A stretch of 64,000 nt of DNA from Polytrichum commune (Eukaryota; Streptophyta; Polytrichopsida; Polytrichales; Polytrichaceae). Below, piece after piece: positions 2,995 to 24,889 of this stretch. Below the pieces are notes generated by a model. That model saw only the letters and a program-made list of their open reading frames with translations, searched no databases and was not told where the DNA came from. The stretch's first letter is position 1. Each line of letters starts with the position of its first letter. Location of the stretch: assembly GCA_950295325.1 (NCBI GenBank), contig OX485803.1, positions 57,985,554-58,049,553 on the forward strand. Reading direction: 5' to 3'. The position numbers were made by a program, and so were the translations under genes.

Positions 2995-5869
2995 TCACAT
3001 CCTCCAGCAATGGCTCAAAGAATAATTCGCACATCCAAGCTTGTAGGTTGCAATGCACGTACCTTTTATAGGCGAAAATCTTTTGAATCCATCATCTTTA
3101 TGTGTACGTGGAAATAAATACATATTCACAATCATTTGAACTCCCAAGATATGCTTGCAACTTGATACGCGCGCCGCACAATCACAAAAATACGTTTGTA
3201 GAGAAATATTGTATTTTGTGGTATGAGAACTTTCACTTATGATACGGAATAACAATTGTTCTTCACTTATTACCTCCAAAGTATTTTCCGGGTCCAATTC
3301 GTATGGTTTGAATAATTTTCCTCCTCCTTTCGACCGACGTTGATAATATCGATCATTTGCTCTTCTTGATAATCTTCCCGAATCACCTAAAACAAAAAAT
3401 AAAACAAAAACATACTTCTAAATTTTACAAATATCGCATTATATAACAAAATGTCATACTAGACCATAACCTATTAACCATGACAAAATGTAAGCAACTT
3501 AGACTAAACTCACTTATGAATTAAATTTGTTGAAAGTGATCCAACAAGGTAGGCCCTTCAACACGGGTACCATTTTCCGCGCTTCCAATGATTGCAACAA
3601 TTAGATATCGGAGTGAACGATTTATTTTGCCTTATAACAAAGTGTATTTGATCCACTCCCAATGACGTTCTACATTATTAGTAGTATTCATACCGCAATA
3701 AGAAAATAAATCTTCCAAATTTTGGCCATAAAGCTCTCCACGGAATATCTGGATCACTCTACTCCGATCGAAGATAAATATTTACGGTTGAAATATGTTG
3801 AAAATCATTTTACAACTTTTGTAAATGAACTTAAAAATGAGACTCATTGGGGCAATACATCAAAATATGCAATGAATGCCATAACTTCTCTTTATCTGGT
3901 TCCGGAACGCGAGTAAGTAAGTTTTTCACTCCAAGCCTTCATCACATGAAAATGACAAAAGAGAATTCTTCCCGTAATTTGAACTTTTATGGCATCTACA
4001 AACTCCAACAATTAATGTTATTAAAAATGAGTTTGTTAATAGAGTTCAAAGACGTTTTATGTTTGTCAATGACCATTGCGGAGGGTCTTATCTCTCCGAT
4101 AGAAGCAAACACCGTGGATAATGCCACCTCTATGACAATGCCTTCATGTCTTTCATACACAACATATAAAATACTGGCATCCCATTTTCATCTTGATTAG
4201 GAATAATAACCGCATATAGAGGTAAGTCCCATTGGTTTGTTTTGAAAGTAGAGTCTAATGCCCATGCATTAGCATTAGAATTTTTTTTATCACAACTCTC
4301 ATGAACCCATCTTGAATAAGTACAACAAACGGTTATTTCGTTTTTCCCGGGTACTTTGGTACATATGGTTGGTGAAAGATGACTTTGCCTTGTTCTTGTA
4401 GCCTCATCACTTCCACTTCAGCGGAATCCAAATCATGAACTCTTAAAGAATCTAATAAAATCAAATCAATACTTGAATAAAAAAAAAACCATAACACAAA
4501 GTAATTCATAAAACATAAAAAAATAGATAATGCAACATATTGTTCAACTTCATTGAATATATTATTTGTTCCACATTCTTTGCAAAAAGGTAGAATCGAA
4601 AAATGACTCGTTCCAATCCTCCAACCATGCTTATGATTTTTCTTTGTTTGTTTTTGGATGTGGACACTATCCGCTTCAAATTTTCCATAGCTAAGGACAC
4701 AACTATAGGATGCACTGGTAGAATTAGTTTATCAGTGTCCGTACCGGGTTGGTATCAACTATGCTTTGTATGTAACGATATAGTAGCCATTCCGGCGCTT
4801 AAACCTTCGATTTGTTTCCCTTTGTGTAGAGGTTCCATTGTTCTAATTCGAAATTAATAATTACATAACCTAGACATCAATTTTTTTTCATGGGTGATAT
4901 TATTTGAGCATCTCTTCACCTTAGATTTAGTTGATACCCTTCTTTTCTCACCTCTATGACAACGGTAATATTTAACAACATAACTTTTACTTTGATAAGT
5001 ACAAACCCATCGTCATAGTACAAGGTGACTCTTACAAAATTTGTCTAATGTCACATCTAATCCTTCAATTGGAACATTATGCACATCATTCCATAGTTGA
5101 GCATTCAAACAAGTTTCACAAGAATGAAGACATTTTTCAACATAAGTTGAAAAAATGCCTCCTATTCTAGTATTCATACTCCAATTCTTCCAAATTTTGG
5201 GTAAGATTGTGCGAAACATCAAATATTTACCACAAGTATCTACATGAAAAGATTGTACTATCAAACTTCAATTATCAAAAGAATGAATTTCTCTATCTTT
5301 GGAATCTTTCAACGGTAATAGACCAAGTCTATTACTTATGTTTATGACTTTCACATTCTCTTGGATTTTTTGCCATCGTTCAATGATATAATGACTATCG
5401 TTTGAATCAATGAGACGTCCATGAGTGTGAGAAAATGGTCTAAAACTTGCATCATTTTCACGAATTTCAGTGAATGTTGGAACAAACCCACCTTGTAAAC
5501 ACTTGATCATAAAATATCTACTAGCATTTGTAAAATGAACAAATTTTGGAAAAGACTCAATGGGTATATCCGCAAAAAAATGTAAGGTAGGTTCATCTAC
5601 AAAATTAGGAGTGTTTCCAATCAAAGAAGTGAAGCTTGTATCATCCCTCCTTCTTCACACTCTTCTCTTTGCTCTTCATCCTCTTCAATCACTGCTTCAT
5701 AGTCGGAGATGTGAAAGTAGGTCTCTCGGACGGTGCTATATGAAGCAAAATCATTGTTTTCTTGTGGTGCTTGGATTAGCTCCTCTACACTTACTACATC
5801 AAATAATTCTTTTTCAAAATCGGAAGGATAAATGCAATCATCACCCAAGAATTCACTATTTTTCTCCAT
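2995..5869 (-). pseudogene. Mutator-like (MULE) transposase pseudogene with SWIM zinc finger
   Basis: Read on the minus strand, the pieces come in the order of a MULE transposase but in several frames. At 5869-5621 lies an acidic N-terminal segment, followed by open pieces at 5624-5268 and 5264-5013. Around 4870-5010 comes a basic segment with YYRCHRGEKRR, like the N-terminal DNA-binding domain of FAR1/MULE proteins. The catalytic core follows: ALDSTFKTNQWDLPLY (about 4210-4270) with the first Asp, AMVIDKHKTSLNSI (about 4045-4090) with the second Asp, and TTNNVERHWEWIKYTLL (about 3640-3700) with the expected Glu. The last piece, 3297-2995, has a CxC...CxH SWIM finger (CDCAARVSSCKH). Frameshifts separate the pieces, for example just after the first Asp block, and there are in-frame stops, so it cannot make a whole transposase. 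I did not find its terminal inverted repeats. Confidence 0.8.
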
Positions 5870-14032: not shown

Positions 14033-14200
14033 AAGAGTGTTACACTAATTATCTCATTTAATGCGTCTTACTATTCGGAGTTACGCACTAAACATGGGAT
14101 TTGTGGCACTCAGCCCCCACTCAGCTAAAGGTTTTTTAATCCGGTGGGGGGGAGGGGTTGCCCGCTACCATAAGAAAGATTATCTCTCTCTTCTAGGTGG

Positions 14201-14243
14201 ATGCATGGTTGAGTGGCTCACTTTTTGTGTCACACCCTATTTT
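14201..14243 (+). repeat. Left terminal inverted repeat of the two-gene transposon
   Basis: ATGCATGGTTGAGTGGCTCA at 14201-14220, then 13 bases, then ACCCTATTTT at 14234-14243. The five bases before it (GGTGG) are near-matched by GGTAG outside the right arm in the same orientation, so the repeat may begin around 14196. Confidence 0.75.
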
Positions 14244-14866
14244 ACAGTGTACCCCCGTGCATTGCAAGCCACGTTGCATACAATTTATAGCAGCTATGGA
14301 TGTGAGATTTGGGCCACTCAAAGGTAACTTGAATAGGTAGATGACCACATATTCCTTTACATGAAATTCTTCTTCAATTAAGGGTGATGGACTTTTGAAA
14401 ATACAATATGGACTGTGGTCAACAGGTTTTGGTTTAGGAATTTTGGCGTAAACGTCAAGAATTTTTTTGCATTCTACTAGGAGTGACTATGTATGTTATG
14501 TGATCCACTATGAGGTCCATAGTAGTGATGTTTTTTTGCACATTATGTGTGTAAATACAGTTCATATGGACTTTTAAGTAGGCTAAATGACGACGTTTTT
14601 TCGAAACTCCATACTTGGGGCAAAAATAATCGTTTTTCATGATTTTTTTTCTGGAAACTACTCATGTACAATGTGTTCAGGTGGGCTTCTTGTCAAAAAT
14701 CCCACCCTTACTTGCTATACTACAATCATAGAATTGGGGTTTTCGGGTCCCACCGACTGTGGGAGGGTGGATGTGGATGAGTTTAGTTGTAGAGTGAAGT
14801 GCACACTGACGGGTGTGACCCGCCACGTGGACTACAACCCTCTGGTTTAGGGTTTAGGCAATCTGA

Positions 14867-17800
14867 ATGTTCTCCACCAGTTTTGCGTTGCCCGTTGCAG
14901 CTCGCATGTCTCTTGTTCAAACCTGCAGGTGCTCGTCATGTGCAAGAGGAGTGAGGTTTAGGGTTCAACTTGTGTGTGTGTTGCTCGCGGAAATGGGTAG
15001 TGCGAGAGCGAGAGATAGGAGGGCAGGTATTCGGAGAGAGGGCCCTGTGGAGAAGGCGAGAATCGATGTTGCGCAAGAGCGGGCGAGGGAGCGCCAACGC
15101 GAATCACGGCGTCGGAGGAGAGCAAATGCATCGAACTCCGTGCGTGTCAACGTGGATGCGGGATCCTGCTCGGAGGGTGATGACGCGTATGCTGATGGCG
15201 TCAACCGCAGATTGGTGCGCCGGGACGTTGTGGCAATCTTGGGCTGCGTTCAGAGGACTTTGAGAGGAAGAGGGCGGTTGCTTCCACACAAGCAGGCAGT
15301 AATGCGGTCGGTGTGGAACAATACTATGACGAGGGATCTCCTGCCACTTGGGACACGGAGGGTTTGCAATGAAACAGATGCGCGACAGACAATTGTGTCC
15401 AGTTTGTTGCAACCGCTGTCGGAGGTGAAGACATCGAAGACACAGGCCCATTTAGCTACAAAACATGCTATCCTTACAGCCGCTGTGACGAATCCAACGC
15501 GAGTCTCTGCCCGCCAGACAGCTCGCCTGCTAGGCGTTCATCCCGCAATGTAGCGATGGCCACACAGAGGCGAGTGACGATGGTCAGGTTCGTGCATATG
15601 GAGTGGACTTTGTCCGTCAGGAAGATAAGGAGCGATGCGACATCTTCGATGGTACAAGACATTGTCACTGCGTGGTGGGCTGCAGAGACACGGCCAAGCC
15701 CGAATCGCAAGGAAGTTGTAAGGAAGTGGGTTGCTCCAAAAACATATGTTCAACACCATGCTCAATATTTGTTGGAATCTCTGGTGGGCGCTCTCACATC
15801 TATGTAGAATGTCTCCTTGCATTTTTTTTTTGTGTAATGCTGGTGTCTGCATTTCATAGGAGCAATCTGTGAAGCTTGGCACTTCTGATGGAGTTTTGAA
15901 TCTCTAGGTTTTTTACTGTCGCAGTTGATTGCAATAAAAACATGGGTTCTACTTTGTTAGGATGTGATTGTTTGTAGGATTTCAGGTTTTCCTTGCGACA
16001 GAGGATGCAGTAGGCTTGGAATCGAATCTTGGATTATATTTTGATATTCTAGGGTATATTGAGCATGCTGGCATCTTCAATGCTGGTATTGAGCATTGCT
16101 GGTATTGAGCATGCTGGCATCTTCAATCTGTGAAGCTTGGCACTTCTGATGGAGGTCTTAATCTGTAGGTTTTTTGCTGTCAGAGTTGATTTACAAACAA
16201 ACATGGGATCTACTTTGTCTTGAAAGTAGTTGCACATACATCTGGATGGATGCAATTTGCAACTGCCTATGTATGTTCAGGGATTTATATAAAATCCGTC
16301 AATATTGAATTCACATGTTTGAGTCAGGATTTTTCTCCTGCACCAATTTGCATATGTAATTTGTTGTTAATTCAGCCATCCGAAATGTTGGATCCCAGCA
16401 GAAAATTTGCAAAGGTTTTAAATGGAAATGCTTTTAGTTATTTTCCTGAAGCCTTGGACTTTGACTGGAGATTCCGTCGTAGTTTAGGGATGCATCATCG
16501 GGCTTCCTGTACACCTATGTAGAATGTAAACATGCCATTGCGACTTCTGGACTCTGTGGACCTTTGCACGCATGGGTGGAAGTTCAGGGTGATCCGTTTG
16601 GGTCTTCATGGGAAATGTTGGAGTTTATTTACTTCTCCAACCACTGTATGTACTACGGTGGACATGCTACAAAGTTCCCATGTAGAATATGGGAGGGTAT
16701 TGTCAATTTATGGAATGTTTAGATATGGGCGCTTCATGTATTGACATCTTTGGGGTTTCTCACCAATCCTTTGGAGTGTATGCAGTAAAGTATTGAATAT
16801 GTGGACTATTGGAGACGTTATATGCAATGTGTGGGAGTTCATGGACTTCATATTGAGTATATGGAATTAATTGTGTAATTCTAGACTGTGTGGACAGTTA
16901 CCCAAGGTGAGGACTTGGATTTGGGGTTCATGGATTTTTTGGGAGTTCTTGCAAGAAATATATGACAATATGGACTGTACAGAACATCTATGGAGTGCTA
17001 CAGGAATTTGCAAACCCATAACTTTTGCTGAATTTCTTCTTGGTGTATTCGTGTGACAGATGGCGTTCTATATGCGCTTCCGTGAGGCCCATCCCGAGGT
17101 AATTGTCGGTAAGCGTGTTTTTGATTCCATGCAACCATACTGGGTGAAAAAATTGCTAGAGAGAAATGTGTGTTGTTGTATATACCACGTAGAAATGGAG
17201 GAATTGCTATCTGCATTTACTCAATTGAGGACAAAATCAGGTATACACAACAAAGTAGATTGTGTTTGTCAATGTGAGGTCTGTCTCAGTGAATCAAATG
17301 TGGGGCATTGTGTTGCGGGAGTGTTTGTGTATCCTGGTCTGACAGCCATTTCAGATGCAGTGTTGTGCCCAAAACCTCCTAATTCAGCGTGGCATGCAAA
17401 GGATTGTTTGTTTGGTGAATGTATGTGCTGCGGTGTGGACATTCTACCCATGTGTCCTACAGAAGAGGATGGATTGTCTCCTATACCTGTGCAATGGAAG
17501 CATTACGAGATGCAGTCAATCACTACGAGGAAAGGTCTACAACGGAAGAAACTGCAGTTGGTTTACAAAGATACAACATCGCGTGAGTTAATCAAGTACC
17601 TCAAGCTTAAACTCCAATTTTTTGTGCGTCATAGTTTTGTGGCGAAGTGGGAGGATGAACAATTTAGGACGTGCTTGAGGACCTCCCCCGCAGACACAAT
17701 GGTGTCCGTCATTGACTATGCTGAAAACTATTCTTTTGAGGTGCAAAATGAGGTCCAATCCATGCACTGGCATAGCTACCAAATTAGTATCCTTGTACAC

Positions 17801-18954
17801 ATAGCATATGTCCGAAATCCTCACCCAGATCCACATGATGAGAGCACACGTAATATCACGAGCTACCATTTCTACATTAGTGATGATATGAAACATGAAA
17901 GTTATTTTGTGCAACACTGCCTCATGTTGCATTGGGAAAGCCAGGGGGGTTTCATACCCAAACATCACTGGATATGGTCCGATGGCTGTGCAAATCAGTT
18001 TAAGAGTCGAGTCCCCTGGTACTTTGTAGCTCGGTATCCAGAGATTACCGGTGGTTGCACGTGCATGTGGTCTTCTTTTTGGAACAGGGCATGGGAAAGG
18101 ACCGCACGATGGGGCAGGTGCTGTCCTGAAACGGTACATTCGAACTGCCCAATTGGACATAAATGGCCCGAAGCTACAGTGCGCTGAAGATGTGGTCGGT
18201 TACTTGAGGAAAGAGTTGAGTGACCGCCCTAAAACTGTCTATGGCGATAGGAGGCCTATGAATAGAACATTTTGGCATGTTCTCGAAGGAGATGTTGACA
18301 GGGAACATGAGTACGATTGTGAGCCCATACCTCGTTGCAGAGACTTGCACTCTATTCGCTCCGTCGACAGCATGGAGGTTGGTAAGTTGTTGAAGCGCAC
18401 TTTGGCATGTTTTTGTTTCTCATGTATTGAAGGCAACTGGGAGGAGTGTGAGAATAGAGCTTGGGCTGGGGACTGGGAATTGGAGGTCTTAGTGCCATTG
18501 AATGCTGCTTATGTCCGGAATGTCCAGCTGAATGAATTTTTGGTGGAGGATTGGCATGCATCATGTTGGAGTAAATGGTACGTATTTTGCTTCAATACTC
18601 GAAGTGGGTGATAACTTTGTTGTTGCAGCTTCCCCTGATAATGAAGAAAATGTAGATTTTTATGTTCTTGTATGCACTAGGAAAGCTTACACTTGTAAGA
18701 CAACATTTGTTTGCAAGTGGGGTGAGGAATTTATACCGGGAGATCAGGTTCTTGAGGGACTCTACTACCAGAAGTACGGTTTAGGGGCTGATACGTATGT
18801 CCTCTTGAGGAAGTCACATAGGGCGCACATTTTAGCAGATCATGTTTGTGCAGTGAAATTTCCGATGTTGTTGTGTGATCATCGTGTGTTTGGTAATGAC
18901 CCCGTGTACAAGCTGCAGAGAAAAGTGGAAGAGGCCATTTTGGAGCAGGCGTGA
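14867..18954 (+). pseudogene. RNase-H-like transposase gene with three frame disruptions
   Basis: Piece 1 (14867-15553, possibly starting at the second ATG, 14993) is strongly basic and ends with a helix-turn-helix-like VSARQTARLLGVHP. The frame changes there and piece 2 (15556-15807) continues with WWAAETRPSPNRKEVVRKWV. The 15808-17059 gap fits an intron ending in ACAG. Piece 3 (17060-18187) has FREAHPEVIVGKRVFDSMQP, Cys-rich segments (CVCQCEVC; CLFGECMCCG), then VIDYAENYSFEVQNEVQ and WSDGCANQFKSR. At about 18075 one extra base moves the frame, and GTGHGKGPHDGAGAVLKR continues in the next frame (to 18611). A third shift near 18540-18600 leads to the C-terminal module GDNFVVAASPD...VDFYVL...GLYYQKYGLGADTYVL, ending 18954. 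Asp codons at 17714, 17981 and 18108 are candidates for the catalytic triad. The motifs belong to a protein family widespread in animals and plants and often called uncharacterised; transposase function is inference. Confidence 0.7.
15866..16219 (+). repeat. Direct repeat inside the transposase intron
   Basis: About 95 bp at 15866-15959 (AATCTGTGAAGCTTGGCACT...) recur at 16126-16219 with about twelve mismatches, 260 bp downstream. Between them is a small simple duplication based on TGAGCATGCTGGCATCTTCA and ATTGAGCATTGCTGG at 16060-16125. These are internal duplications of the intron, not coding. Confidence 0.65.
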
Positions 18955-20455
18955 ATGCTGCCATTGCGAAGAAGGGTAATTTTAAGCCAAACCATTCCAT
19001 GAGATCTTGATAACTGTGATGTTTGTGTTATTTCCTCAACATATGATCTGCTTGTGGATCTTTTTGGCTGGTTTTAGGGGTTTGCAGGTAAATGGGCTTT
19101 CGTGGCTGGTCATTTTGGCAGTAATTGCAGTATTGAAGGTTTCTTCCAAAACTCCTGTCCTCGATTGAATTGATTATGGAGAAACGTGGGGAAGTATAAT
19201 GAGAAATCGGTGGAGATTTTTATTCTGTTGAGATAGGTTTCTGGAGATTGGTGTTTAGGTTTTTTGCTAAAGCTGCATCTCCACACACTGATTTGCATAA
19301 ACCATCCATACATATTGGGTTAGTAGCTGCATAATATTGCATAGATGTTCGCTTGAAATTCCAAATTCGGAGTTGAGGTGCAAAAAATCGTTAGAGGTTG
19401 AACTGAAGATTGTGCTTTTCTTCAAGCAACCACATAAGCCCTCCAAATAAAGGTCACTATTGAACCTTAAATGGTGTCTAAGGTACTATGTGAGCCTTAT
19501 GTGATCACTACACTCTAAACTCCATCGTATCACACCAGTGGCAACCAAAGTGCACATGATATTACGGAATTTTGTAGTGTTAACGTGGAATTTAGTTGGT
19601 ACCATCTGGTTATTGAAGGTGACTGAAGTTTTGGCCATCCAAGATGCTATCTTACATCAACCATTTGAAGAAGACATTGAACTTCTACTTTCAGACTATT
19701 CTGTATAAGCAGCAACCTTACAAACTACAACATAATTGCTGAATTAATAGCTTTTGGAGGCTTCTGACAATTCATAACTGCATACAGCTAAGAGCTTTAT
19801 TGACACAGGTTCCAGATCGCACCTTCTGGAAAATTACCCATCATTCTAGAGGAATTTAAGGAATACACCCCAATACAGCAAGGTGAATTTAAAGAATACA
19901 CCCCAAGTCATTGTGTCCTACAGTATAGACATAAAAGACATACAAGGTGTGATGAGATTGGACTAAGTTCTCAAATATAGACACCATTTAAGGATCTGAA
20001 CTGATTCTGAAACTTGGAATGACAGTCTATGCAGATCAAAATTGCTAACCAGATGAAATTATTCCCAATCCGATACAGTGGCCACAGTCAGCTCTGGAGT
20101 TAAAAGTGCCCACGACAGGCTCACATACCACAATGAGAAAAGGTGCAGAAATTGGCACAAGAGTAGCAGAGCACTTACACAACGATGAGTAGAGCTAAGC
20201 AGTGATAAAATAAAGAGACAATGTACACCAGGTATAGCAAAGTTTACTAGACAAAATTGATATTGGATCTGGATTGTGGTGGCTGGAGGTCAACGTTGAC
20301 GAGAGCCACTATCATAAGATCGTCAAAATAATGGATACAATTGCCGTTGTTTGCTATCACAAGACCGTCAAGATAATGCAATCTTGAATGCAACCTCCTG
20401 CCCAACCAGAGACAAGATTCCCACAGGATATGCAAAGACCCCTAAACCATAATCC
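18955..20455. other. Spacer between the two convergent transposon genes
   Basis: No gene. At about 19826-19925 there is a fragment similar to the middle of repeat family A (GGAAAATTACCCATCATTCT and GGAATACACCCCAA), itself partly duplicated at 19885-19912. Around 20305-20385 a short direct duplication of ATCACAAGACCGTCAAGATAATG occurs. The spacer should contain both 3' ends; no clear polyadenylation signal can be assigned. Confidence 0.5.
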
Positions 20456-20725
20456 TTAAGGCCTCCCCCGCTGGGACGATCTGGTCCTCGTTGAAATGCC
20501 TTTTCGATTAGGAAGGGTCAATTTCTTCCCCTTGTTCACAGGTGAATTTTTGCGGTCATCTTCGTCACTCTCACCTCTTAGGAACCGATCAATGTGGGAG
20601 TCCTTCTGCTTAAAACATAGTTGGGACAGGGTTGGGTTGTCTTGAAAATCGTCCTCCGAACCCCCGCCTTCGTCGTCCTCGTCCGTTGAGAATTCTACAG
20701 CGTCGCCCTCAAAATCACAAGGGGC
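20456..20725 (-). pseudogene. In-frame extension of the RING gene beyond a TAG stop
   Basis: After the TAG at 20728-20726 the same frame stays open for 89 further codons to a TAA at 20458-20456. The extension reads as real coding sequence: an acidic tract (STDEDDEGGGSEDDFQDNP), then HIDRFLRGESDEDDRK and a basic end (LTLPNRKGISTRTRSSQRGR). The simplest reading is that TAG replaced a sense codon such as CAG in this copy. Programmed readthrough is possible but there is no evidence for it. Confidence 0.6.
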
Positions 20726-23662
20726 CTATGATTGAGTACCCCGCCTGGAACTGCCCAGATTCGTCTTCCTCTTCTGAGATACGTCTGCCTCTGGTAAGTT
20801 GATGGGAACCTCCTTCTCATGTGGCTGAACCCGTTGGTGGCCATTTTTTCTCTTCAACCGCCCATTGACTTCCTCGTCACCGCAGGAGAGCCTCTCTTCC
20901 CACTGCACGTCGTTCCTGGATTTTGTGCGCCTCTCTCGAAACTGCACCTCATCAGAAGTGGCGTCAGCCTCCTTCTCGGGTATGATGGAATCATATTGCA
21001 CAACGGGTGCCTGCATTTTTGGAACTGCGAACTCACGAGTGTCAGGAGGTGCCATTCGATTGGAATGTGGCTGCGGGTGAGCTGGGGGGGTGACCTTCTT
21101 GGCCACATCGTCATCTTGGCGGGGCATCCTGGTGGCCAAATCTTGAAAGCTTCCAACGGAGGGGCTTGGAGTACGTGAAGGAGCTGGTTCCCGCACCTTA
21201 TCAACCCCAAAAACCATTCGGGACGTTTGTCCAAGGTCTGCAATAGACACACACAACGATTAGTTAGCCAGAGATGTTCACAGGGTTTAGCAATATAGGA
21301 ATTGCGATCCCCTAAACCCTGGTGACAAACCCATCCATGACCACACCCATTAGTAGTTAGTAGACCTCCACACCCTAAACATACAAGTCACTATATGCCA
21401 CAATATATCAATATCACATTGAACTCTACATACAAGTCAATGATCATCCAAGCAGGAAATATAGAAACCCATTCAGTGTTGTTGACATCCCTAAAAGTCC
21501 CAACACAGTCAAAACTTCATTCAAACAATCACTAGGAAGCCAGTTTGAACACTGCACTGTCCACAACTCCTATACTACATGGTAACCCTCTACACCATTA
21601 TACAACGCTGCCAAAATTATCAAATGAACCCTAAACCCCACACTTGTTGTCAGTGGACATCCACATGAGAGGGACAGAAGCCCATTCCCACCTAAACGTA
21701 AACACTGAAGACCATGTGAAGCACATACAACATCATGTTGGCTCCATACAATCAATACCACAACAATCACCTTATCATCTATGCCAAAATTTTCAAATTA
21801 ACCCCTAACTCCTCTTTTGGCTGTCACTGGACCTGCACATGAGAGGGATTAAAGCCCATCTCCACCACACCCCAACACTGAAAACCATATGAAGTACATA
21901 CAACTCAATGTAGGCTTCTTCCAATCAATACAAACAATGCAGGGATGCCAAAATCAGACATGTATTCTTAAATTCACTGCAAGTACCCATGTGTGCAGCT
22001 ACAAAGTCTAGGAGTCCAGAAGTCCAAGCCAAGCAAGTGCCAACCTCCAATTTCCATAACATGATGGAACACGCAGATGTGGTTATCTTTCCCCCCAAAA
22101 AAAGTGGACATCATATACCTAAACCAGCATGATGTCCCAACAACAGCATGATAAACTCAAATTGGACAGAAGATCAGGGGAGTGAGGGGATTACGTGTAA
22201 GAGGTGTTCTCTCCCAAGCTGCAACCATGACGACTCCATCCTTCCCCAGCACTGGCTTCGGAATCCCTGTGCAGATCCACCAATCCTTGTGCATCTCCAT
22301 AGCACAGTCTTTGTGGATGCATTTGGTGGACTCACTGAAATGGGTGAGTGCACACCATGAATGGTAAGCGTGGCGGCAGGAGGCTAAACGACAATCCCAC
22401 GCCGGCTCAAAGCCCCGCAAACAAAATGGGCACACACCCACCTGAATTGTGTCACTGAATACAGGCTCCTCTCGCCAGTCGTTGTGGATAGCCGGCAACG
22501 GCACAGGTGTTGTGGTAGGACGCTCGTAGCCGGCCCGCATACCTCGCAGTTGGGATTGGAGTGCAATTTGGTGACGGTTCCACAAGAACTGCCTCGTCTT
22601 GGCGTTGTTCCAGGCTTCCTCGGCATTCGTCAATTTCGCCAATTCCACTATCTCTGCGTGCCGACCACCACAGGTCTCCTCAAACACGGCCATAATTCCT
22701 TTTTGGGCATCCACTCGGAGCTGGAGGCCTTCAAGATCTCGGTGTATGAAGGCCAACCCACCATCTTCTAGCCTCACCGAAACCAGTTTGGCCCTCAAAT
22801 CATCCCGCTCTGCCTCCAACTCCGACAACTTTGATTGAGCGTCGGAAATCAGCTTGCGGCCATACTCCATTTGGGAGGAGACCTTATGCAAGGTCATTCT
22901 GGCCTCTTCTTTTTCGCCGAAAAGAACCTGGACGTACCCATCCAAGCCAAGCGACTCCCGCTCCAACGTCTCCAAGCAATGTTGCCATTCTTCGATGGAC
23001 ATTGCAATTTTTTCCAGAAAAGAAATTTTGTGGCCTCGCTGCGGTATAATGCCTGCACAATTGATCCCGGAGCCGGGCACCTGCTCTCGCGAGCAGTTCT
23101 CTTTGCCCAACTGACACTCCTTCTCCGAATCCACCTCTCCCTTTAGATAAATCCCCTTGGACTTTGCGGCGTCCTCTTCCTCTGCCCGCAACTTCTTCAA
23201 CTGGTCCCGACAGGTCCACTCTGTGAAAAGGGCCCAGTTAGTTTCTTTTTTCTTCACAATCTCGTACGTAAACCCTTTAGCCTCGGAGACGTTCACCATG
23301 CGGGTGTTGGGCACCACTGTTTTTTGGTGGCAAATCATCCACATTGTCTCCACCTTACGCACAAACTCCTCATCCATTGTAGCGTATCGATAGCCATTGC
23401 CATTCTGCCGCGGCCCAAACAAGCTTTCCACATCCGCCTCTTCTAAATGGTGCCCAATCTTAATCTGTTTCGGGGTGATTCCTCTATTGCACAAGTTGTA
23501 TTTCTCTGCAAACCAATCCCTTGTCACTACTGACTTTCGATCCCACAGGATCTCAGGCTGGCAAGCATACAGGGGATCCACCCAGCTGCTCTTCTTCGCA
23601 CCTCGTTTTGGACACAGTAGCCTCTCCTCCGGCTCCTCCTGCGAATCCTCGGAATCGGACAT
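20726..23662 (-). CDS. Coiled-coil RING-H2 protein, second gene of the transposon
   Basis: Two exons, 23662-22195 and 21237-20726, joined at GT-AG sites in phase 1, give 659 aa. An ATG at 23803 in the same frame would add 47 residues, but MSDSEDSQEE at 23662 is the more natural start. Residues 1-30 are acidic. A middle region of roughly 110 residues (SSQMEYGRKLISDAQSKLSE... onward) has heptad-like Leu/Ala spacing and charged residues, as in a coiled coil. A zinc finger follows at about 411-453: CxxC, CxHxxHxxC, Cx4C, which is the C3H2C3 RING-H2 pattern, then EMHKDWW. The exon 2 part is Pro/Ser/Arg-rich and probably disordered. RING-H2 proteins are usually E3 ubiquitin ligases, but function here is unknown. 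It is transcribed toward the transposase from the opposite transposon end, which suggests a second element-encoded protein. Confidence 0.7.
21616..21939. repeat. Tandem duplication in the RING-gene intron
   Basis: About 148 bp at 21616-21763 recur at 21793-21939 (offset about 177 bp) with roughly 20-25 percent differences. Shared words in order are CACATGAGAGGGA, AAGCCCAT, AACACTGAA-ACCAT, TGAAG(C/T)ACATACAAC and CAATCAATAC. The copies lie wholly in the 22194-21238 intron. Confidence 0.65.
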
Positions 23663-23986
23663 GGCGTACACCTTCACGTCACCGTAACAGACGTCTCCGT
23701 AGCAGGGTACCCGGACAGCAACTCCCGAGTGTGACAAAACGTGACAGTGTGATGGCTCCGCGTGCGACAGCTCCGGGAATAGAGGACAACGCACATGCGA
23801 CAAAGGGAGGTCATGCTCCCAAAACCCTAGTAGTTGAGGGCCATACGATCGGGTTCCATCTAACGGCCCAAACGCATGCCCGCCAAGGAGTTTGAAAATC
23901 CATCATGGTTGGATGAATGAGGGAGCAGATTTGGATGACGGACGTTTGGCACGTGTGGACGGAGAATTTGAAGGGTATGGAGTTAA

Positions 23987-24030
23987 AAAAAACAGGGTAT
24001 GGTCCGGTATTGAGCCACTCAACCATGCAT
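23987..24030 (-). repeat. Right terminal inverted repeat of the two-gene transposon
   Basis: TGAGCCACTCAACCATGCAT at 24011-24030 is the exact reverse complement of 14201-14220. In the inward direction, 12 bases later, comes the complement of ACCCTGTTTTTTTT (about 23986-23998). Outside it lies CTACCCTCC followed by a run of C and then A. Confidence 0.75.
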
Positions 24031-24889
24031 CTACCCTCCTCCCCCCCCCCCCCAAAAAAAAGAGCTTGTAGTGGGCAGGTGATAAGTTGTAAAGTCCACC
24101 AGTTTGTTGGCTTTGTCTGTAGGACAAAGACTATGCATTGACTTTTATGTTTCAAGAGCAAAATTCCTAACCACTTTGTGTTCATACTTGAATGTTATTT
24201 GTTCCTATTATTTCTGGTCCAGTATATTTAACGCGGATGTTAATTATAGTCATATATATCTAGTCAACTATAGTTGTTCCCTAAAATGTATTGAAAAAAA
24301 AATCTAGTTAACTATAGTTATTTTGGCAGTTGTCCAAGATCTAGAAGCTTGTATATATCGAGATGGTCTACGAAGTTGCAAAACCACCTTCACATTTTTT
24401 GATCTTGCATCTACTAATTACATATATATAATTAACATTCATTATATATGGAATTTACTTGTTTTGCAAATTTTTGGATGATAAATGAGTAGTTTCAGTC
24501 CTTCACCCACATTTGAGAAGAAGGTACACAAAATCCAGGAAAGGTTTGGTTATAGGTATAGAATAGCCATGGATTGGCATGAGCAAAGTGGACAGCTATA
24601 GTTGTAGTCTTTCATAAGAAAGGACAGAGCCTCACAGTTCTACCATTTTCTTGTTCAAGTTTCTCAAGGAAACTATGTATACACAATGAATTTACAACAA
24701 AAAAAAAACACTTGTAACCACTATGTTGTCTGATTTTGTGAGTATTATTTGTGGGACCTTACAAAGTCCAAAGTGGATGAAATGAAGCACCACTCATCCA
24801 CAGCCTCCCAACATCCAATCTTAGAATTTCTTGCTTGAAGGAGACCTAAGAATCATGGATCCACACCTTTTTCTTTTAGATACTTAGGA
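24031..24889. other. AT-rich intergenic DNA right of the transposon
   Basis: Begins with a C13 run and A8 run (24041-24061), then AT-rich DNA with TATATATA words around 24420-24460. No gene recognised. Confidence 0.45.

Follow-up and report, generated by a model that had tools for sequence, protein, structure and literature searches.

The genome of the plant Polytrichum commune (GenBank assembly GCA_950295325.1) contains, on contig OX485803.1, a 9,842-bp element that is, with high probability, a two-gene DNA transposon with GGG-starting ends and 4-bp target-site duplications, in which a transposase gene is accompanied by a convergent partner gene for a RING-H2-like protein. On the same well-supported explanation, elements of this type have given rise to several families within the plant's genome. 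The element was found in a 64,000-nucleotide stretch, positions 57,985,554 to 58,049,553 of the forward strand, which was analysed as a whole and is referred to as the window. The genome searched comprises 407.8 Mb in 64 contigs; the window corresponds to C1:57985554-58049553, and copies are named by contig and position in Mb. Four matches to the LEAFY SAM domain, along with TTTAGGG-like words, give this genome a land-plant-like character.

A repeat search of the window revealed the perfect 20-bp inverted repeat at 14201-14220 and 24011-24030 on which a preliminary description of the stretch had been built, and stretched it to 25 nt at 96% identity. Alignment of both ends of 16 end pairs from the genome shifted each end six bases outward of the 20-bp word, giving true element ends at 14195 and 24036 and terminal repeats of 26 bp (GGGTRGATGCATGGTTGAGTGGCTCA). 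At the left end of the window copy the first G is replaced by A (AGGTGG, compared with GGGTGG elsewhere). Among the 16 aligned pairs the transposase-side end usually reads GGGTGG and the RING-side end GGGTAG. Three copies (C6:20, C5:32 and C7:12) have GGGTGA on the transposase side, and the C1:54, C6:32.7 and C1:10.9 copies carry GGGTGG at both ends. A second conserved word inside the ends, also pointed out in the preliminary description, was found on both sides (CACCCTATTTTAC left, ATACCCTGTTTTTT right) and recurs in other copies of the window's family. Both of the genes predicted between the ends are present and run toward each other. The features of the element, in window coordinates, are as follows.

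14191-14194, no strand: left target-site duplication, TTCT, with three of four bases equal to the right one; a perfect 4-bp duplication occupies the same position in 12 of the 16 end pairs.
14195-14220, plus strand: left terminal inverted repeat, transposase side (repeat search, genome word count and copy alignment).
14993-15807, plus strand: transposase exon 1, with a basic, presumably helix-turn-helix-like region (ARLLGVHP...), ending at YLLESLV; located by tblastn with the open exon of C7:12.68; frame change near 15544.
17057-18954, plus strand: transposase exon 2, with VIDYAENY, SDGC..QFK and GHGKGPHDGAG; frame changes near 18080 and 18558.
20456-21259, minus strand: likely second exon of the RING-protein gene, a disordered basic tail, with matches in C1:24.06 and C1:54.20.
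22157-23662, minus strand: exon 1 frame of the RING-protein gene, open; it encodes a coiled coil and a RING-H2-like domain besides a conserved N-terminal domain, and its final codons probably belong to an intron.
22307-22435, minus strand: RING-H2-like domain, C-x2-C-x14-C-x-H-x2-H-x2-C-x10-C-x4-C, with coordinates counted by hand.
24011-24036, minus strand: right terminal inverted repeat, RING side, GGGTAGATGCATGGTTGAGTGGCTCA on the minus strand (repeat search, genome word count and copy alignment).
24037-24040, no strand: right target-site duplication, TCCT (copy alignment).

Searching the genome with the 20-bp end word, with up to two mismatches allowed, revealed 21 forward and 23 reverse occurrences. 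The word read backwards, used as a control, gave 0 + 0, and the 44 genome occurrences against none in the control rule out an accidental repeat. Thirty-two of the 44 form 16 convergent pairs spaced 5.6 to about 51 kb, three of which, the window's included, have spacings of 9.66-9.83 kb; of the 12 unpaired words, seven are of the TGGACCA type and lie inside or beside other ends. Other copies, too, have both genes enclosed by these ends, as the preliminary description had anticipated. Target duplications, which it had proposed to look for at copy boundaries, were computed for the 16 pairs and recomputed for 14 of them. The 12 perfect duplications are GTGG, TCCT, AAGA, ATAA, TATG, AATA, ATTA, TTGA, TAGA, TTGA, CACA and AAGT, and the four pairs without one are the window copy (TTCT/TCCT), C3:27.96, C3:18.02 and C1:24.13, where one flank repeats, in inverted orientation, a flank of C1:24.06. 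Of five loci inspected in other families, four likewise have GGG-starting ends with a perfect 4-bp duplication (C6:10.56, ATAG; C6:28.50, ATTC; C4:1.85, which belongs to the same family as C6:28.50, ATGT; C1:72.55, GTAT), and no ends were found at the fifth, C5:42.41. A search of 12 loci for GGG-starting inverted ends with equal outer 4-mers recovered the expected ends in six and one extra, weaker pair in C6:20.48; the same search on 12 reversed sequences found nothing.

Empty sites were sought by comparing the joined flanks of 15 copies (one shortened) with the genome, and 40 of 4,910 candidates were scored. The junction of C4:24.31, a member of the window's family, is uninterrupted at at least 33 places at 98-99% identity, and that of C1:72.55, from a distant family, at at least seven places at 100% identity. 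Four empty sites aligned gap-free, two for C4:24.31 (198/200 each, with a single TTGA) and two for C1:72.55 (210/210 each, with a single GTAT), so that the comparison suggested in the preliminary description yielded empty sites for one copy of the window's family and one of a distant family. The C6:20.48, C5:32.58 and C7:12.68 copies share 97.9-99.3% nucleotide identity over their shared length, and the RING proteins of five copies of the C1:72 family are 99-100% identical; such near-identical copies indicate recent movement. Judged from these genomic comparisons, the stretch in the window is a genuine mobile DNA element, present in many copies, with inverted ends and making 4-bp duplications.

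Some copies have further peculiarities. Two 15.7-kb copies, C1:24062755-24078455 and C1:24132894-24148594, lie 70 kb apart in inverted orientation and have the flank at one end in common and not at the other; this arrangement may reflect a local inverted duplication, a rearrangement or an assembly effect. Several copies, 15-kb ones among them, contain an internal RING-side-like end of the TGGACC type, some 4.66 kb away from the RING end, for instance at L004:3202 (the C1:24.06 copy), C4:8189516, C5:36457624 and C6:31527982, which is possibly the remnant of a nested relative. The 5.6-kb copy at C3:18018840-18024770 has diverged ends, and inside it only residues 281-340 of the query transposase match, at 53%; it may be a deletion derivative or belong to a further family. 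The C7:12.68 copy contains a frame resembling a piece of a Gypsy integrase (L008 near 3419-3961), and a frame like a CACTA-type transposase lies beside the C6:28.5 element (L032 ~8994 into L037 ~1112), both judged by eye.

All three motifs by which the preliminary description recognised a transposase (IDYAENY, SDGCANQFK and GTGHGKGPHDG) are present in the window, the last in another frame than SDGCANQFK, with the frame change near 18080. Across families with 39-50% identity to the C1:24 reference, (I/V)D(F/Y)AENY, SDGC..QF and GHGKG..DGAG are kept, with single substitutions (AKNY; GHEKG; DHGKG; DGTG), and the aspartates of (I/V)D(F/Y)A.NY, SDGC and KG..DG are conserved in the alignment rows that cover them. 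The catalytic acids are probably D220, D311 and D353 of L003:3233-5125 (D353 counted by hand). For the aspartate-aspartate-glutamate (DDE)/RNase-H-like enzyme originally proposed, Pfam and PDB profile searches gave no support for an RNase-H fold. The helix-turn-helix label of exon 1 is one that we take from the motif alone, and a Pfam search gave no relevant match for this possible DNA-binding region. Exon 2 is open over 632 amino acids in several other copies, and over about 620-690 amino acids in many better-matching ones. With its transposase frame broken near 15544, 18080 and 18558, the window copy reads as one that moved in the past and whose own transposase is now defective; relatives with open frames exist. 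A prokaryotic or viral origin was considered and rejected, as a transposase profile search found no relative in viral or prokaryotic contigs.

The RING frame of the window copy is open. The eight zinc ligands in RING order (C-x2-C...C-x-H-x2-H-x2-C-x10-C-x4-C) are complete in 15 of 19 loci, the window included, and the pattern had 0 matches in 422,832 reversed residues. A profile of the RING protein matches the RING-H2 ligases RNF24, RNF165 and Arkadia in the PDB, with E values from 3.6e-4 (RNF24) to 0.007. Both results favour the RING-H2 assignment of the preliminary description. In all 15 matches to the pattern, a hydrophobic residue (F, L or V) directly precedes the second cysteine. Single-sequence structure prediction of the N-terminal domain gave no usable fold (mean predicted local distance difference test score, pLDDT, of 37). 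The tail exon has a ratio of nonsynonymous to synonymous substitution rates (dN/dS) of 0.97 between the window and C1:24.06, and this likely second exon would be weakly constrained or not coding throughout.

Co-occurrence of the two genes was assessed by genome searches with a 340-amino-acid transposase fragment (94 matches), the RING protein of the window (83 matches) and the RING proteins of two other families (84 and 100 matches). Transposase loci were counted from a score of 171 bits upward: 60 rows reach it, and leaving out C1:10970889, which is another piece of the C1:10.95 locus, gives 59, with 35 of the 94 rows dropped. The RING side of the count was a hand-merged union of about 90 matches. 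At 51 of the 59 loci the nearest RING match lies downstream, on the opposite strand and within 30 kb, and at a 52nd, C4:18.8, a convergent RING match at 33 kb lies inside one pair of ends. Chance would give about one locus in 59, as estimated from 90 rows in 408 Mb. Four of the 51 convergent pairs are 18-25 kb apart, have no known end pair and are less certain. The joint occurrence that the preliminary description had proposed to look for is thus found, on opposite strands, at 52 of 59 transposase loci. In divergent families the RING protein is only 21-40% identical to that of the window, with position and orientation conserved.

For nine copy pairs, the same for both genes, dN/dS was calculated by the NG86 method; comparisons between more distant families were saturated at synonymous sites. 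The RING exon gave values of 0.13-0.31, at synonymous divergences (dS) of 0.20-0.61, and the transposase 0.13-0.19, at dS of 0.15-0.36. Between the window/C1:24 and C1:54 copies, identity is 61% for the RING exon and 84-85% for the transposase. We read both genes as being under purifying selection. Taken together, the co-occurrence at 52 of 59 loci, the purifying selection and the recurring ligands argue that the RING protein belongs to the element as a regular second component and is not chance cargo.

One group of elements, that of C1:72, encodes additional proteins. Four copies of the group have an extra open frame for a canonical C3HC4 RING that an intron interrupts (...CIICFEKCKPMATLE, then GTGAGT...TGCAG, then PCGHTCVCTTCAKDLLLCPTC...); one of the four has GTGATT, and single residues differ between them. 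The frame lies beside the RING-H2-like gene in L030/L031 (the C1:72.55 family), L049, L050 and L051. The joined exon pair of C6:6.2 matches PF13920 with 27.9 bits, above the cut-off of 27, and the dN/dS of the frame is 0.22-0.45. A search with the tail of the C3HC4 protein gave 23 matches, all at places where gene A of the C1:72 group also matches. The same group has a third gene, B (L030:6449-8152, minus strand; also L049, L050 and L051), which shares its N-terminal domain with the RING protein and has a coiled coil, with no RING match in a Pfam search. A swap of gene B between elements was considered and rejected by direct comparison, which shows gene B to be conserved: three further copies of the group have 85-87% identity over its opening stretch of about 130 residues.

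In the explanation we favour, gene 1 would encode a transposase with an acidic triad (probably DDD) that most likely excises the element and integrates it with a stagger of 4 bp. Since most related elements keep the gene pair, the second protein probably helps the element to move or to escape control: gene 2 would be an accessory transposition factor that works alongside the transposase at the ends of the element, or a shield against host control. Its N-terminal domain and coiled coil perhaps bind DNA or the transposase, and its RING would recruit a ubiquitin-conjugating enzyme (E2).

A number of observations weigh against this explanation or parts of it. The transposase has no relevant Pfam match and 0 PDB profile matches, and no known transposase family or RNase-H fold was detected in these searches. 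Seven of the 59 transposase loci have no convergent partner: no RING match lies near C4:2.93, C3:36.40, C7:27.47, C4:48.99, C3:17.63 and C1:77.84, and that of C7:39.44 is on the same strand. No empty counterpart was found for the window copy, whose flanks match only themselves in the genome search. In two comparisons with very few differences, dN/dS of the RING exon is high (2.61 for C6:20 and C7:12, at a dS of about 0.003; 0.90 for C4:1.85 and C5:50.9, at a dS of 0.02), with transposase values of 0.44 and 0.30. As to the RING itself, four of the 19 loci (C1:54, C6:40, C1:62.3 and C6:36.2) do not match the full ligand pattern, and the domain of the window scores 17.6 bits against zf-RING_2, below the cut-off of 27.3; among ten rows for single members, of which two are fragments that lack the RING, seven match zf-RING_2 below the cut-off. 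None of the 15 pattern matches has the proline of the CPxC motif that is typical of ubiquitin ligases. Finally, RING matches without a transposase, some with frames of about 470-530 amino acids, occur at C6:130 kb, C7:458 kb, C1:62.3, C6:36.2 and C3:38.15.

Neither a transposase nor an end pair was found around four of these lone RING-type or N-domain genes, in C6:113500-131500, C7:457500-476500 and C1:62308500-62323500 (15-19 kb) and in C6:36203500-36212000 (8.5 kb). The C7:458 and C6:130 copies start at a common GGG end, GGGTYCATTCACGATTGAGG. This second terminal word (GGGTYCATTCACGATTGAGG / GGGTYCATTCACGATTGRGG) occurs 307 + 282 times in the genome with up to three mismatches, against 13 + 9 in the control, and one GGGTYCATTCACGATTGAGG occurrence lies next to the RING gene at C1:39.2, a locus with a degenerate transposase. 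Against the preliminary description, some RING genes stand without a transposase in the stretches examined, and two of them carry an end of the family type. These two, the C7:458 and C6:130 copies, look like decayed, partial or rearranged members of another family; the lone genes may in general be decayed elements or candidates for domestication. The GGGTYCATTCACGATTGRGG word was also observed several times in convergent pairs 0.7-0.8 kb apart (for example C1:35592735-35593498, C1:71635005-71635713, C3:3989254-3990059, C2:51984648-51985455 and C2:22517142-22517929), which are probably non-autonomous relatives resembling miniature inverted-repeat transposable elements.

We regard ligase activity of the gene 2 protein, or recruitment of an E2, as an even chance, because the CPxC proline is missing in all 15 matches while one group adds a canonical RING. 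The RING-like domain might instead be a structural zinc finger and gene 2 a DNA-binding or architectural partner that helps the transposase to hold the ends, without ligase activity, as in the parallels of the Myb-like ORF1 of Harbinger and TnpA of CACTA elements. Such a finger is favoured by the C7-x4-C8 spacing in a domain that lacks the proline, by Pfam scores below threshold, and by the N-terminal domain, the part in common with gene B of the C1:72 family, for which no RING match was obtained. It is opposed by the RING-H2 ligases among the top profile matches, by the hydrophobic residue before the second cysteine and by the above-cut-off C3HC4 RING in the same elements of one family group, and we hold it as a tentative possibility.

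A host-directed, anti-silencing factor that destabilises a host silencing protein and is dispensable for cut-and-paste transposition would account for a RING exon that evolves faster than the transposase and is yet constrained; presence at 52 of 59 transposase loci equally suits an essential transposition factor, and this role seems to us rather unlikely. It is highly improbable that gene 2 was picked up from the host as a passenger. RING-H2 genes are numerous in plants, transposons do capture genes, and some RING-only loci exist; against capture stand the conserved position and orientation of the partner in families as divergent as 21-40% identity, and the genome searches in which three proteins of gene 2 and the C3HC4 tail served as queries; these matched loci of the families or transposase-less loci, none recognisable as a host gene of another kind, the loci being unannotated here. 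The boldest version of the two-gene transposon is quite unlikely: an undescribed plant transposon superfamily with an obligatory, self-encoded ubiquitin ligase that removes a host silencing factor or times the turnover of the transposition complex, its RING doubled (RING-H2 and C3HC4) in one lineage.

Among known systems, the available part of a 2015 paper describes TransibSU and RAG1-RAG2 as a transposon with a transposase and a second zinc-finger protein, a Kelch-PHD RAG2-like protein, and reports that the RING of vertebrate RAG1 has ubiquitin-ligase activity and is missing in TransibSU (PMC4411706). The present element is likewise a DNA transposon with a transposase and a separate zinc-finger protein. 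RAG1 has its RING as a fusion to the transposase-derived protein, whereas here the RING belongs to the partner; the transposase motifs differ from those of Transib, and the ends start with GGG and accompany 4-bp duplications. Transib target duplications are 5 bp long, and ProtoRAG is a comparable two-gene system. According to the same part of the 2015 paper, two subgroups of Chapaev (CMC) have a RING, located after the Chapa domain inside the transposase (PMC4411706). A RING in a DNA transposon is thus common to both, the RING here being encoded by a separate convergent gene. A Pfam search of the window-family transposase gave no Chapa or other relevant domain match. Chapaev target duplications are also 4 bp long, and Chapaev ends start with CAC, unlike the GGG here. 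The Sola superfamily makes 4-bp target duplications, and it is by this length, not by transposase sequence, that our plant DNA transposon is likened to it; membership is possible. Second proteins of PIF/Harbinger, CACTA and Mutator elements help movement or counter silencing, and the duplication lengths of these elements differ from 4 bp; unlike the RING protein here, their partners are of the Myb-like, TnpA or VANC/MURB kinds. The available portion of PMC9033089 includes these three among plant transposons with further coding sequences, lists Sola1 for Physcomitrella in a table and mentions no RING partner for Sola, in contrast to the element described here. Academ elements make a 3-bp target duplication, as given in the accessible text of PMC5199201, compared with 4 bp here.

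The accessible text of the 2015 paper states that, beyond Chapaevs and the RAG1 lineage, no known transposable element encodes a RING finger (PMC4411706). No plant transposon with a RING partner is described in the literature searched, which includes the available portions of PMC4455052, PMC9033089, PMC10294476, PMC5199201, PMC4411706 and PMC8969392, most subscription papers and Repbase lying outside its coverage. Within these sources, a RING partner outside Chapaev and RAG1 appears new. If the RING is a working ligase, the element would offer a direct system for the use of the host ubiquitin system by a selfish element, and it forms a parallel to the two-gene, zinc-finger-bearing transposons ancestral to RAG. 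The open frames and near-identical copies suggest that existing copies would suffice for a functional test.

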